Shown here: piece by piece, positions 1 to 42,812 of the stretch | Layout: the number at the start of each line of letters is the position of its first letter | How positions within the stretch are numbered: position 1 is the first letter of the stretch | DNA from: a virus | Length of the DNA stretch: 42,812 bases | Direction: 5' to 3' (one strand) | Virus record (IMG/VR): IMGVR_UViG_3300037316_000011 | Coordinates: 1-42,812 of that record | The notes under the pieces: generated by a model | Told to the model about the DNA's origin: nothing | Databases searched by the model: none | Seen by the model: only the letters and a program-made list of their open reading frames with translations | Program-made: the position numbers and the translations under genes

Positions 1-126
1 ATCAGGCTACGAAACTAGCACTAGAGACGGTGAAAGTCGCTTCAGATAATACGGCTGTGCGGGAAAACCAGCGTTCCACACAGATGATATCAATAGTCTC
101 GCTAATCGTTACTATCGCACTTGGCG
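1..126. repeat. Terminal direct repeat, left copy
   Basis: Bases 1-126 are identical to 42678-42803. The repeat lies inside one open reading frame that reads correctly across the join, so it is an assembly overlap of a circular or circularly permuted molecule, or a short terminal redundancy. Sequence alone cannot separate these. A 126-bp length equal to an assembler k-mer would favour the overlap explanation. Confidence 0.95.
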
Positions 127-17442: not shown

Positions 17443-17473
17443 ATATTTACACTATGACAAATCAGCATTAGTT
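17443..17473 (-). promoter_or_regulatory. Promoter-like repeat, leftward copy
   Basis: The minus strand carries CATAGTGTAAATAT (17456-17443), identical to 22034-22047 on the plus strand. AACT stands exactly 13 bases upstream in both places (17473-17470 here). TGTAAAT or TAAATA would serve as a -10; no TTGACA-like -35 is present, which suits a weak or activated promoter or a phage sigma. It overlaps the stop codon of the sigma-like gene and points into the leader and replication genes. Confidence 0.6.
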
Positions 17474-18078
17474 AGCCCTGTCTCATGCCATAACCGCAGT
17501 CTGGCGCCCTGTGGTAAGCGCTTTAATTGCTGCAATGCAATAGTAGCTTCCTGTATAGCTATACACTCGTCCAATGGGTCGCGAAAGCCAAACGGCGCAA
17601 CATCATATGGATCTAATTCACCATCCCCAGAATCCACCGCAGTATCATCATATGCGGATGGGCCGTCAGTGGCTACATCCTTTAACGGCTCTACAGTCAG
17701 CCCATCACCACGGGCAAAATCCGTTCCGCCTTTAGCAACTGTCCATAAATAGCTCTTTATAATCCGGCGGAATGCCACATTGGCATAACTGACATACTTA
17801 TGTGTTGGATTAGCTAGCCAGTTGCGTGTAATTGGTACTACTTCTAGCTGACATTCTTGCATTGCATCAATTAAATCTGTGTCATCTGTGTCAAATGGCA
17901 ATTGGTTCCTATGCTTAGCTATCATCTCACTAACACAGAATGCTGCTATGCGATGACAGTACAGCCGTATAGGCGCATAAGCGCCCTTATGAGCGTATCC
18001 TGCGATAGCATCGTCAGGTAGTATGCTTGAGCCGGCTATCGCCGCCTTACAAGCGTCTGCGAAGGTTATATCACTCAT
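17452..18078 (-). CDS. Divergent sigma-70-family-like protein
   Basis: In this 208-aa protein, residues about 70-118 follow the region 2 pattern: DLIDAMQECQLEV, then HKYVSYANVAFRRIIKSYLW, comparable with DLIQEG..GL..A......FSTYA...IR.AI. After an acidic linker, residues about 168-208 (DECIAIQEATIALQQLKRLP and RLRLWHETGLTNADLS) resemble region 4 up to its first HTH helix. The protein stops there, so the usual recognition helix is missing. It may redirect host RNA polymerase to the phage promoter boxes, one of which overlaps its own stop codon. It could instead be a decayed sigma or an anti-sigma-like binder. Start supported by GGAGG about 10 bases upstream. Confidence 0.55.
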   Translation of the reverse strand: MSDITFADACKAAIAGSSILPDDAIAGYAHKGAYAPIRLYCHRIAAFCVSEMIAKHRNQLPFDTDDTDLIDAMQECQLEVVPITRNWLANPTHKYVSYANVAFRRIIKSYLWTVAKGGTDFARGDGLTVEPLKDVATDGPSAYDDTAVDSGDGELDPYDVAPFGFRDPLDECIAIQEATIALQQLKRLPQGARLRLWHETGLTNADLS

Positions 18079-18079
18079 A

Positions 18080-18208
18080 TCAATATCCCCTCCAAAGTAA
18101 TCGAATGAAGTAATAGAGACCCCAACCAGACCATGATACGAAGATCAGTAGCACAAGGGCTGCTAATGATGCATCGACAACAGTCGGAGCGAATCTTGAT
18201 GTAAACAT
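18080..18208 (-). CDS. Small single-span membrane protein
   Basis: The 42-aa frame starts at ATG 18208, two bases after the glutamine amidotransferase stop, with GGGAG 8 bases upstream. It has one hydrophobic helix (ASLAALVLLIFVSWSGWGL) followed by aromatic and basic residues (YYFIRLLWRGY), a typical small inner-membrane peptide. It is placed directly between the amidotransferase and the sigma-like gene. Function unknown. Confidence 0.6.
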   Translation of the reverse strand: MFTSRFAPTVVDASLAALVLLIFVSWSGWGLYYFIRLLWRGY

Positions 18209-18209
18209 A

Positions 18210-19115
18210 TCACATACTCCCTGCATAACTTAACATACCATCATCCATATCGATATATCCGCATATAGGGCATTGAACATGTGCGCCTTGGATATCATCC
18301 TCATTAATCGTGCTAATAGCCTCACAGGATTCGCATATGAAGTTACCGTCACCATCCTGTATATGCTCAGCTAAAGCTGCGTCTAGCGCCTCAGCGTCAG
18401 TGTCATGCGTGAGCAATAGCGGCTCATCACGCTGTGTCTGATAATACGTGCCGCGTTCCATATAGTGGGTGTGTCCAGCACCCTCTACTACGCGCCCCCA
18501 ACCGCCTTCATATGTTGGCTTATCCTTGAATATGCGCGTGTAATTGTCCTCATAGTTGTTGAACCATCTAGCATTAGTCGCTGGCAAACTATACGTCTGC
18601 GAATACCAGACTCCATTAATCCAATCTCCCATCTCTGCATTGACAAGCTTGAATCTACCATCCCAGGACATTACGCATAATTTGTTATGCGAGCCTATAT
18701 GATCGGCCATTTTGTCCCAATATTCGCTATCAGCTACGTCTGCCATAGGCGATTGATGTTTAACGAATAGCTGCGTATCACTTTGCATACCATTTCTATC
18801 TTCAGGTATGTATTGTCCCAAGATACCGTTATGCATCACATATGCGTCATTCTGAGGTGTAGCAAACGGATGTACATTAGCTAATGCAATACGACCGTGC
18901 GTGGCATAGCGGAAGTGTACGGCAAACTCATGTCCGCCAGCATTCAGGCGCTTGATATGGCGCCAAGCACGCTTAACCATCTTGCTCCCTAGGAATCTAT
19001 GTACGCCTTCGTCTTTAGACATGACTCCTATGCCGTCATTATTATCATGCGCTGCGCATCTCATGTATTCCTCGGGTAATTGCTGCCCTGCGGGCACATA
19101 GCAGATCAAACACAT
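18210..19115 (-). CDS. Class II glutamine amidotransferase (Ntn hydrolase) with C-terminal zinc ribbon
   Basis: In this 301-aa protein, Met1 is followed directly by Cys2, the expected N-terminal nucleophile once Met is removed. HFRYATHG (67-74) and MHNGIL (94-99) match the conserved substrate-binding and oxyanion segments of class II amidotransferases, as does LANVHPF. It should hydrolyse glutamine and pass ammonia to a partner. The partner is almost certainly the amidoligase encoded one base upstream. A C-terminal zinc ribbon (CESC near residue 260, CPIC near 281) is an unusual addition and may contact the partner or substrate. The gene and its neighbour look more AT-rich than the replication genes, suggesting later acquisition. 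Confidence 0.85.
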   Translation of the reverse strand: MCLICYVPAGQQLPEEYMRCAAHDNNDGIGVMSKDEGVHRFLGSKMVKRAWRHIKRLNAGGHEFAVHFRYATHGRIALANVHPFATPQNDAYVMHNGILGQYIPEDRNGMQSDTQLFVKHQSPMADVADSEYWDKMADHIGSHNKLCVMSWDGRFKLVNAEMGDWINGVWYSQTYSLPATNARWFNNYEDNYTRIFKDKPTYEGGWGRVVEGAGHTHYMERGTYYQTQRDEPLLLTHDTDAEALDAALAEHIQDGDGNFICESCEAISTINEDDIQGAHVQCPICGYIDMDDGMLSYAGSM

Positions 19116-19116
19116 A

Positions 19117-20259
19117 TTAGATTTCCTCTTTAATTTGATAGCCTGGTATCTTACCTAGTCGCTTAACGCTCTTAGACTCCGCCAGGAATGCAACTAGATG
19201 CTTATATGTCCCTCGGCGCTTATTGATCCAAGCTAAGAATCCATTATACCCTGTTACATCCTGCATACTAGCATCGCGGCAATAGTTTACCATGGCATGG
19301 CAGAATTCAATATTCTTTAATACGCGATCCGGACGCATATTACCTTTGAATATGCGACATTCAATAGTCTTGGTGCTGACATGCAGCGCTTCATATTTAT
19401 CACTATCTGGCTTTGAGCCGTCGAGTAGCGTCTTAGGTATGCGCTTAGCCCATCGTTCAGGATTACGCTGTGCAATCAGGTTAATCAATGTTGTGTTGGG
19501 TTCACTATTGATAAACACTAGCATCTTGCCGAGCGTAAGCGCGGATATAGCCTTGCGATTGATATGCACGTGCATACCGCAAGCATCTGTGCTCTTACCA
19601 GACATGCCTATATCCTTCACGCTCCCTAATATCTTATCCCACCCAAACGCGCCTTGGTGTGCTTCCAGCGTGTAGGGTAGCGTAATCAATTCAACGCCGG
19701 ACTTATTGAGACTGCCATCACACATGAGAATGTATGTGCCATTACCATCGCGCCCATCAAGGGCGCTGGACAGCTCTTTCATACCATCCTTACTTTCATC
19801 TCTAGTATGTTCCATCTCCAGCTCAACACCAAAGCATAAACTATTCTTAGGGGTAATAGCGGGCCATCCATGCGTATCTAATACATCGGTATCGTGATAT
19901 TGATAGATAGCATCACTATGCGAGCCATTCTCATCATCATATGTATCTCTATCCGACGCATATTGGAACCATAGGTCACTATTCTCTGATGATTGATAGC
20001 AGTTATGACGCCTGTAGCTCAGGGATATATAATCCCCATCACTACCGTCGCCGCGTAGCGTACATGCTGAACTACTGTCAATGAGGGTTTCCTGTATATC
20101 AGAGTATATATAGTTAGCAGCGCAACTCTCACATATTATGTCGTTATTCTCTGTCTCATAGAATGAGATTACATCACTATCATATGCTTCGCCACAATCA
20201 GGACATGTCCGCATATTGACTAGCTCATCATCATCCTGTTGTTCTACGGTGGCGCTCAT
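19117..20259 (-). CDS. Amidoligase (glutamine synthetase-like COOH-NH2 ligase) with N-terminal zinc ribbon
   Basis: In this 380-aa protein, residues 19-46 form a zinc ribbon (CPDC and CESC). From about residue 143 it carries the Amidoligase_2 type signatures: FGVELEME (143-150), a CDGSL...GVELITLP strand pair, CGMHVHINR, and TIECRIFKGNM, which supply the Glu, Asp, His and Arg residues used for Mg-ATP and carboxylate activation. Such enzymes join an amine or ammonia to a carboxylate. With the amidotransferase one base downstream it forms a two-gene amidation unit. The target could be peptidoglycan peptides, a protein or a small metabolite; the sequence does not say. The start overlaps the upstream stop (ATGA). 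Confidence 0.75.
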   Translation of the reverse strand: MSATVEQQDDDELVNMRTCPDCGEAYDSDVISFYETENNDIICESCAANYIYSDIQETLIDSSSACTLRGDGSDGDYISLSYRRHNCYQSSENSDLWFQYASDRDTYDDENGSHSDAIYQYHDTDVLDTHGWPAITPKNSLCFGVELEMEHTRDESKDGMKELSSALDGRDGNGTYILMCDGSLNKSGVELITLPYTLEAHQGAFGWDKILGSVKDIGMSGKSTDACGMHVHINRKAISALTLGKMLVFINSEPNTTLINLIAQRNPERWAKRIPKTLLDGSKPDSDKYEALHVSTKTIECRIFKGNMRPDRVLKNIEFCHAMVNYCRDASMQDVTGYNGFLAWINKRRGTYKHLVAFLAESKSVKRLGKIPGYQIKEEI

Positions 20260-35063: not shown

Positions 35064-35381
35064 ATGTTAGATTTGAATCAGATTAATGCATTGCCCAACA
35101 ATGCCAAAGTGCGCTATCTAGCGCTTGAGAAGTTGTTTGGGCATTCTAGTTATAAGTTCCTTATCGACTGGGCAGCAGCCCAGGTCAAGGATAATGAACA
35201 GCGTGTTCTCACGGCAACCAATTGGGATCAACATTGCTTCCATACTGGTGCTAGGTGTGCCTTCGAGAACATAGTGAAGTTCGAAGAATTTTCTGAAGCT
35301 GAATTTGCACAAGTTGCGGCGGAAGCGCAAGTAGCCGCGAAGGAAGCTGAAGAGGAAGAGCAGAATGGGATGGATGATTAG
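35064..35381 (+). CDS. Hypothetical protein with acidic C-terminus
   Basis: The 105-aa product has a globular helical N-terminal 70 residues (ALEKLFGHSSYKFLIDWAAA) and an Ala/Glu tail (AAKEAEEEEQNGMDD). Good AGGAGAGGA ribosome site. It lies between the portal and scaffold genes; a head-assembly helper is possible. Family not recognised. Confidence 0.65.
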   Translation: MLDLNQINALPNNAKVRYLALEKLFGHSSYKFLIDWAAAQVKDNEQRVLTATNWDQHCFHTGARCAFENIVKFEEFSEAEFAQVAAEAQVAAKEAEEEEQNGMDD

Positions 35382-35382
35382 C

Positions 35383-35667
35383 GTGTCAAAGCTAATCTTG
35401 TTCCAATTTGCCTGCACGAAGTGCGGCAACTCATTTGAGGATTTAGCTAAACCAGGGGATTACTGGTGCAAATGTCCTGAATGTGGAGCGAACGCAAAGC
35501 GTGAAATTACCCCTGTCCGGATTGATAATACGGCATTTGCGACCCAGGAAGGCGCTACACCAACCAGTATTGATCGATGGGACAGGATGCACCAACAGAG
35601 AAAGAAAATCGAAGAGAAGCGCATGCGGGACCATGGAGACTATGGCAAAGCCGCAGGCAGCGATTGA
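35383..35667 (+). CDS. FmdB-type zinc-ribbon protein
   Basis: This is 94 aa from GTG 35383 (just after the previous stop); an ATG at 35365 is the alternative with a GAGGAAGAG site. FACTKCGNSFE and CKCPECGANA form an FmdB-like zinc ribbon; the C-terminus is basic and helical (RMHQQRKKIEEKRMRDHG). Similar small zinc ribbons lie beside capsid genes in many podoviruses; function is unclear. Confidence 0.7.
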   Translation: MSKLILFQFACTKCGNSFEDLAKPGDYWCKCPECGANAKREITPVRIDNTAFATQEGATPTSIDRWDRMHQQRKKIEEKRMRDHGDYGKAAGSD

Positions 35668-42589: not shown

Positions 42590-42812
42590 ATGAGCGACGA
42601 TAATGAGGATCATGTCGGTATGAATGGCAGTTATGTCTCTTTGAAAGAGCACATGAATGCTCGCTTTGCTGCAATGGATCAGGCTACGAAACTAGCACTA
42701 GAGACGGTGAAAGTCGCTTCAGATAATACGGCTGTGCGGGAAAACCAGCGTTCCACACAGATGATATCAATAGTCTCGCTAATCGTTACTATCGCACTTG
42801 GCGAGACTATTG
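42590..42812 (+). CDS. 5' part of small C-terminally anchored membrane protein (continues at 1)
   Basis: ATG 42590 follows the fibre stop by one base. It reads MSDDNEDHVGMNGSYVSLKE, then HMNARFAAMDQATKLALETV and on into the membrane segment, in frame with bases 1-152. The last nine bases (42804-42812) depart from the other copy, so the true end is the TAA at 150-152. An XhlA-like or holin-associated role is possible by architecture. Confidence 0.8.
   Translation, partial: MSDDNEDHVGMNGSYVSLKEHMNARFAAMDQATKLALETVKVASDNTAVRENQRSTQMISIVSLIVTIALGETI
42678..42803. repeat. Terminal direct repeat, right copy
   Basis: 126 bases identical to bases 1-126; the gene reading through them continues correctly only with the left copy's downstream sequence. 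Confidence 0.95.
42768..42812. repeat. Terminal inverted repeat, probable fold-back artefact
   Basis: CAATAGTCTCGC (42768-42779) is the exact reverse complement of GCGAGACTATTG (42801-42812), separated by 21 bases. The other copy of this region (91-126 onward) lacks the second arm beyond GCG. This is the signature of a strand folding back on itself at the contig end. Confidence 0.8.

Follow-up and report, generated by a model that had tools for sequence, protein, structure and literature searches.

Two adjacent minus-strand genes of a phage genome encode a predicted amidoligase (AL) and a predicted class II glutamine amidotransferase (GAT). The two proteins probably act together as one glutamine-dependent amidating enzyme, a reading to which we give a probability of about 0.6. 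The DNA analyzed, referred to here as the window, is the whole of IMG/VR virus record IMGVR_UViG_3300037316_000011 (42,812 bases). The AL-GAT pair itself is already known, and our basic interpretation repeats an established prediction. New here are the numbers that back joint inheritance of AL and GAT as one unit, the zinc ribbon as a trait of the AL subfamily, and a possible membrane microprotein.

Genomic setting of the pair

An exact 126-bp direct repeat was found at window positions 1-126 and 42678-42803, with 9 unmatched bases after the second copy. The repeat suggests a circularly assembled or terminally redundant sequence, and the genome is therefore probably complete. The minus strand carries the replication block, and most structural genes are on the plus strand. 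The AL and GAT genes stand beside the replication genes in a tightly packed minus-strand run, with the following features.

19117..20259, minus strand: AL, 380 aa, carboxylate-amine ligase of the GS/GCS fold (PF12224 profile, AlphaFold model, PDB fold matches)
20122..20205, minus strand: AL N-terminal LIM-like zinc ribbon, CPDC(19-22)-x20-CESC(43-46) (sequence; C46 at least 90% conserved)
19183..19848, minus strand: AL catalytic domain, residues 138-359, with ExE 146/148, D181, E190, HxH 230/232, R265 and ExR 300/302 (conservation)
18210..19115, minus strand: GAT, 301 aa, with N-terminal nucleophile Cys2 (sub-threshold GATase_4/6, PHROG, GlmS structures by sequence and fold)
18573..19115, minus strand: GAT catalytic domain, residues 1-181, with C2, R69, T72, G74, H82, N96, G97 and D113 (pLDDT, conservation)
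18261..18335, minus strand: GAT C-terminal zinc ribbon, CESC(261-264)-x17-CPIC(282-285) (sequence; Zn_ribbon_4 E=0.02)
18080..18208, minus strand: 42-aa ORF with a single TM helix, 1 base after GAT, with SD GGGAG (read from sequence)
17452..18078, minus strand: 208-aa gene at the end of the run, without a Pfam or PHROG match

A 93-aa gene upstream of AL overlaps the AL start by 4 bases, and single bases separate GAT from the 42-aa ORF and this ORF from the 208-aa gene. An earlier reading made from the sequence alone (the sequence-only reading) had placed the AL and GAT genes one base apart. The junction agrees: it reads ...GAAATC TAA T ATG TGT..., with a single T between the AL stop and the GAT ATG and a GAGG upstream. 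Homologues of the 208-aa gene were found downstream of AL-GAT in three other loci (L019, L020 and L095; phmmer 2.5e-39, 2.8e-18 and 3.5e-19). A pattern scan for a promoter or terminator of the AL-GAT unit gave nothing above shuffled sequences.

In the closest clade, AL-GAT lies upstream of the primase gene, of which homologues were found in L019, L020, L006, L027 and L021. The position upstream of primase/helicase genes is common to the window clade, LUZ24, phiEco32 and MEP401/402. From this position beside the primase and helicase genes we infer that the pair may be expressed early in infection.

The window proteins were also scanned for DNA hypermodification genes. No matching gene was found among them, and only ordinary nucleotide-metabolism genes were present. 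Reading the pair as a defense system was rejected, as no PADLOC model matched.

The amidoligase

AL scored 25.3 bits against Amidoligase_2 (PF12224), above the gathering threshold of 22, with no single stretch passing alone and no report over the cut-off in a genome-mode search. It also matched PHROG amidoligase families. The AlphaFold model of AL has a pLDDT of 89.4, and its best PDB fold matches are YbdK (a GCS-type ligase), Dop/PafA and glutamine synthetases; a search of PDB by sequence with the AL profile gave no hit. Weak hhalign alignments place CGMHVHIN of AL against GSGMHCHMS of GS, and FGVELEME against LGIELEMQ of YbdK.

Among 58 sequences, E146, E148, D181, E190, H230, H232 and R265 were invariant, and E300, R302 (the ExR motif) and C46 were conserved in at least 90%. 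AL thus combines the traits of Amidoligase_2: the GS/GCS (COOH-NH2 ligase) fold, the ExE, HxH and ExR metal/ATP motifs, and a GAT or AIG2/GGCT neighbor, which here is the GAT 1 base downstream. By sequence and model, AL is predicted to be an ATP-dependent carboxylate-amine ligase of the glutamine-synthetase/GCS type.

The glutamine amidotransferase

In Pfam, GAT fell below the curated cut-offs of GATase_4 (19.0 of 23 bits) and GATase_6 (16.4 of 27 bits). It matched class II GAT models, GlmS models in NCBIfam, and phrog_25883 at 8e-11. The GAT of L019, which is 52% identical to the window GAT, passes GATase_4 with 25.3 bits; the family assignment is therefore right and the window GAT is divergent. 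The top PDB fold matches are 1xff and GlmS (E 7e-8), and GlmS structures were matched by sequence as well. The pLDDT of the model is mostly above 90 over residues 1-180. The last 120 residues, including the ribbon, were modeled with low confidence (about 60 for the ribbon).

Of 76 homologues, 75-76 keep the nucleophile and the glutamine-binding residues. GAT has the class II features, namely a Cys nucleophile after Met removal, the R, the N-G and the D, in a GlmS/PurF Ntn-hydrolase fold. Sequence and model together predict a GlmS-like Ntn fold that holds all the parts of a class II glutaminase active site. In both GAT and AL, the invariant residues and the fold matches suggest that the active-site residues cluster.

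These results confirm the identities that the sequence-only reading had given to the two proteins: the profile search that was named beforehand as a check, the AlphaFold models and the PDB fold searches all place both of them. The ORFs have the coordinates given there. The motifs quoted from them are all present in the translations (Cys2, HFRYATHG and MHNGIL in GAT; FGVELEME, CGMHVHINR and TIECRIFKGN in AL), as are the CxxC pairs at the AL N-terminus and the GAT C-terminus.

Linkage of AL and GAT in phages and bacteria

AL-GAT pairs are widespread in phages: viral scans found at least 501 relatives of the window AL in IMG/VR. The viral census comprised 90 distinct amidoligases. A GAT gene was found near AL in 83 of them. 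Most of these GAT genes follow AL directly, at distances of -13 to +90 bases, and the gene order was nearly always AL then GAT. The other seven include some cut by contig ends. On bacterial genome contigs, mostly of Oscillospiraceae, a GAT was present in the same locus for 80 of 88 amidoligases and lay downstream in 79.

The divergence of AL correlated with that of GAT (r=0.93, 73 pairs), a value that none of 2000 permutations reached. Since both divergences also reflect phage ancestry, the correlation shows joint inheritance and not physical contact. Apart from AL and GAT, no fixed third gene was found in all viral loci, and GGCT was present in a minority. Linkage, gene order and co-divergence, taken with the predicted active sites, point to a two-protein enzyme as the likeliest interpretation. 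The functional pairing that the sequence-only reading had supposed is well supported by the same evidence and by the predicted folds. Against the two-protein reading, some phages have AL without GAT (L014).

Several loci had other arrangements. Two amidoligase genes lie around or near one GAT gene in L010:3405-6912, L055:73-5762 and L062:241-5720. The AL of Clostridioides phage AR1086-1 (L014:5719-6831) has neither a ribbon nor a recognized GAT neighbor. In Stenotrophomonas phage StenR_269 (L015:4199-12357), the amidoligase belongs to a large cassette that also encodes GGCT, two proteins of GAT type, a glutamine-synthetase-like protein and a D-Ala-D-Ala-ligase-like ATP-grasp protein. Among the Oscillospiraceae genomes, some species, such as Butyricicoccus pullicaecorum and Ruminococcus flavefaciens, have several AL copies per genome.

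Zinc ribbons

At least two CxxC motifs precede the AL domain in 74 of 90 viral amidoligases, compared with a mean of 6.4 and a maximum of 11 in shuffles. Ribbon-type CxxC pairs were present in 82 of 83 bacterial AL. The spacing from CxxC to CxxC is typically 22-24 residues. Some homologues gave weak scores against LIM or zinc-ribbon models, and some carry many ribbon repeats. The cysteine pattern suggests that the ribbons bind zinc. Because it is near-universal on AL, the ribbon belongs to the AL subfamily, of which an N-terminal LIM-like ribbon, as judged from sequence, is a hallmark. AL, and not GAT, is the protein to truncate when seeking the substrate-binding part.

The sequence-only reading had proposed that the paired ribbons dock the two enzymes. 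As a rule this was rejected, because 62 viral loci have a ribbon on AL and none on GAT; the C-terminal GAT ribbon was found in only 10 of 83 viral and 1 of 72 bacterial GATs. Viral AL with at least four CxxC motifs had a GAT ribbon more often (5/14 vs 4/64; Fisher 0.008, a statistic that ignores kinship). The bacterial set is rich in multi-ribbon AL and has almost no GAT ribbons. Docking of ribbon to ribbon is possible within the window lineage, and it cannot explain the AL ribbon in general.

Another zinc-ribbon protein of the window (35365-35667, plus strand; 100 aa; Zn_ribbon_8 E 2.4e-07, below the cut-off) is encoded a short distance upstream of the gene for the major head protein.

A small membrane ORF after GAT

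In the window clade, an ORF of 29-48 aa with one strong hydrophobic helix directly follows GAT in 7 of 9 loci, compared with 4 of 82 cases after the remaining ORFs there (Fisher 1.3e-6), in a test that was devised after the window ORF was seen and on loci that are related. In L003 a hydrophobic ORF begins 64 bases after GAT. Outside the clade there was no enrichment (2/58 vs 17/557). The clade ORFs are dissimilar in sequence, and the one in L021 lies within a longer ORF in another frame. For these reasons, together with the relatedness of the loci and the post hoc test, the membrane ORF is treated as a lead only. The 42-aa ORF is a possible third member of the operon, and its helix hints at work near the membrane.

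A bolder reading takes the clade pair as a membrane-tethered amidating complex of three parts, in which a single-helix microprotein would bring a LIM-ribbon AL and GAT to lipid-linked wall precursors, with the ribbon defining a large unnamed AL subfamily common to phages and bacteria. We consider it quite improbable as a whole.

Proposed mechanism and target

In the two-protein enzyme, GAT would cut glutamine and pass the ammonia to AL. AL, with ATP and Mg, would activate a carboxylate as an acyl-phosphate and convert it to the amide. The AL ribbon may recruit the substrate or shape the complex and would not serve solely to dock a GAT ribbon. More speculatively, the target could be a precursor of the envelope, for example a carboxylate of a muropeptide, so that wall chemistry would be altered during infection, and the product of the small ORF behind GAT may keep the complex at the membrane.

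A cell-wall target is a published prediction (PMC10580990, PMC5498523 and PMC11945000). The sequence-only reading had named peptidoglycan, a host protein or a metabolite as possible targets. For the window pair we regard peptidoglycan as a tentative candidate. The peptidoglycan argument partly rests on the other genes of the LUZ24 cassette, which the window lacks; a weak amidoligase fold match in Catovirus, a giant virus of eukaryotes, indicates that the superfamily at large has no fixed link to peptidoglycan. The same two-protein mechanism is compatible with a target other than peptidoglycan, namely a side chain or C-terminus of a host or phage protein or peptide, which we hold possible but doubtful. 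LIM-type domains commonly bind proteins, and the N-terminal ribbons are near-universal, LIM-like by Pfam and much repeated in some homologues. Fold matches of AL include the protein ligase PafA and the deamidase/depupylase Dop, but these are no better than YbdK.

The reaction itself might also differ. Class II GAT folds also act as gamma-glutamyl hydrolases (EgtC), so ammonia transfer is a probable, not a certain, role of GAT. AL could protect an amine by adding glutamate or a gamma-glutamyl group, which the GAT-fold protein would remove later; EgtA and EgtC work in this way in the synthesis of ergothioneine. The fold matches of AL to GCS-type YbdK and to plant glutamate-cysteine ligase agree with such a cycle, as do the match of GAT to EgtC with a gamma-glutamyl substrate and the occurrence of GGCT, which removes gamma-glutamyl groups, in the LUZ24/phiEco32 cassette and several census loci. 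However, the window has no GGCT, and in both sequence and fold GAT matches GlmS glutaminases best, with EgtC clearly behind; we therefore judge gamma-glutamyl protection unlikely. A nitrogen or amino-acid metabolism set that aids ammonia assimilation by the host, as proposed for Phage-ZRK32 (PMC10945688), appears very improbable. That source describes growth promotion by a phage with these genes plus GGCT and glutathione synthase, but its available part gives no single-gene test. Moreover, a GAT that supplies ammonia from glutamine does the reverse of net assimilation, and LUZ24 and phiEco32 are among the lytic phages that have the pair.

Relation to known systems

Earlier papers describe an amidoligase and GAT in LUZ24-like phages (PMC3890496, PMC3517423). 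For RIO1-like podoviruses a "peptidoglycan modification cassette" was described (PMC5498523), and a LUZ24-like phage has a module of similar kind (PMC11945000). OM43 phages also carry the pair, for which superinfection exclusion was suggested (PMC10580990). These papers credit the idea to Iyer et al. 2009 and Hardies et al. 2013. In the portions of the open-licence literature that were available, we found no biochemical test of the AL-GAT pair and no experimental target for it. We also found no open-licence paper on an amidoligase with a LIM domain.

The cassette of LUZ24, phiEco32 and RIO-1 resembles the window in having Amidoligase_2 beside a class II GAT, upstream of primase/helicase genes (PMC5498523). 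It differs in having a COOH-NH2 ligase, an ATP-grasp protein and GGCT, none of which matched any window ORF; the window is therefore not filed as a full member of the LUZ24/phiEco32 cassette. Unlike the window AL, phiEco32 AL has about 24 residues before the domain and no ribbon there, and the GATs of LUZ24, phiEco32 and RIO-1 are larger than the window GAT. With only the two genes, in a phage of 42.8 kb that lacks the additional LUZ24 ligases, the window pair would be the easiest form for purification and assays.

The OM43 phages MEP401 and MEP402 and MW202733 (Caudoviricetes sp., Manatee Spring) have adjacent AL then GAT genes with CxxC pairs upstream of the AL domain, as in the window. In MEP401/402 the pair likewise lies upstream of primase and helicase genes. 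Compared with the window, MEP401/402 and MW202733 are 25-33% identical in the matched parts and have no C-terminal GAT ribbon. Chromosomal DUF960-AL-GAT operons of Oscillospiraceae/Ruminococcus share a LIM-ribbon AL directly before a class II GAT. They are bacterial records, typically with six CxxC motifs on AL, DUF960 upstream in the loci read, and a GAT without a ribbon. Such an Oscillospiraceae operon, with a LIM-like AL, was seen in L118:4681-7020, L142:4683-7039 and L148:4642-7050, and DUF960 was confirmed in L118 and L148.

Mycobacteriophage Marvin gp105/gp106 is also an AL and GAT with ribbons on both proteins, in a different phage and host, and its GAT tail has four CxxC motifs. Marvin gp105 (L016:4560-5921) is annotated as "glutamine amidotransferase domain protein" but is the AL, and gp106 is the GAT.

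In comparisons with the window terminase, OK094664.1 (Shewanella phage vB_Sb_QDWS) and OP650936.1 (Hujiaoplasma phage zrk29-1) gave the same score and have the same length (47,902) with very different stated hosts. They are possibly one genome that was deposited twice or mislabeled.
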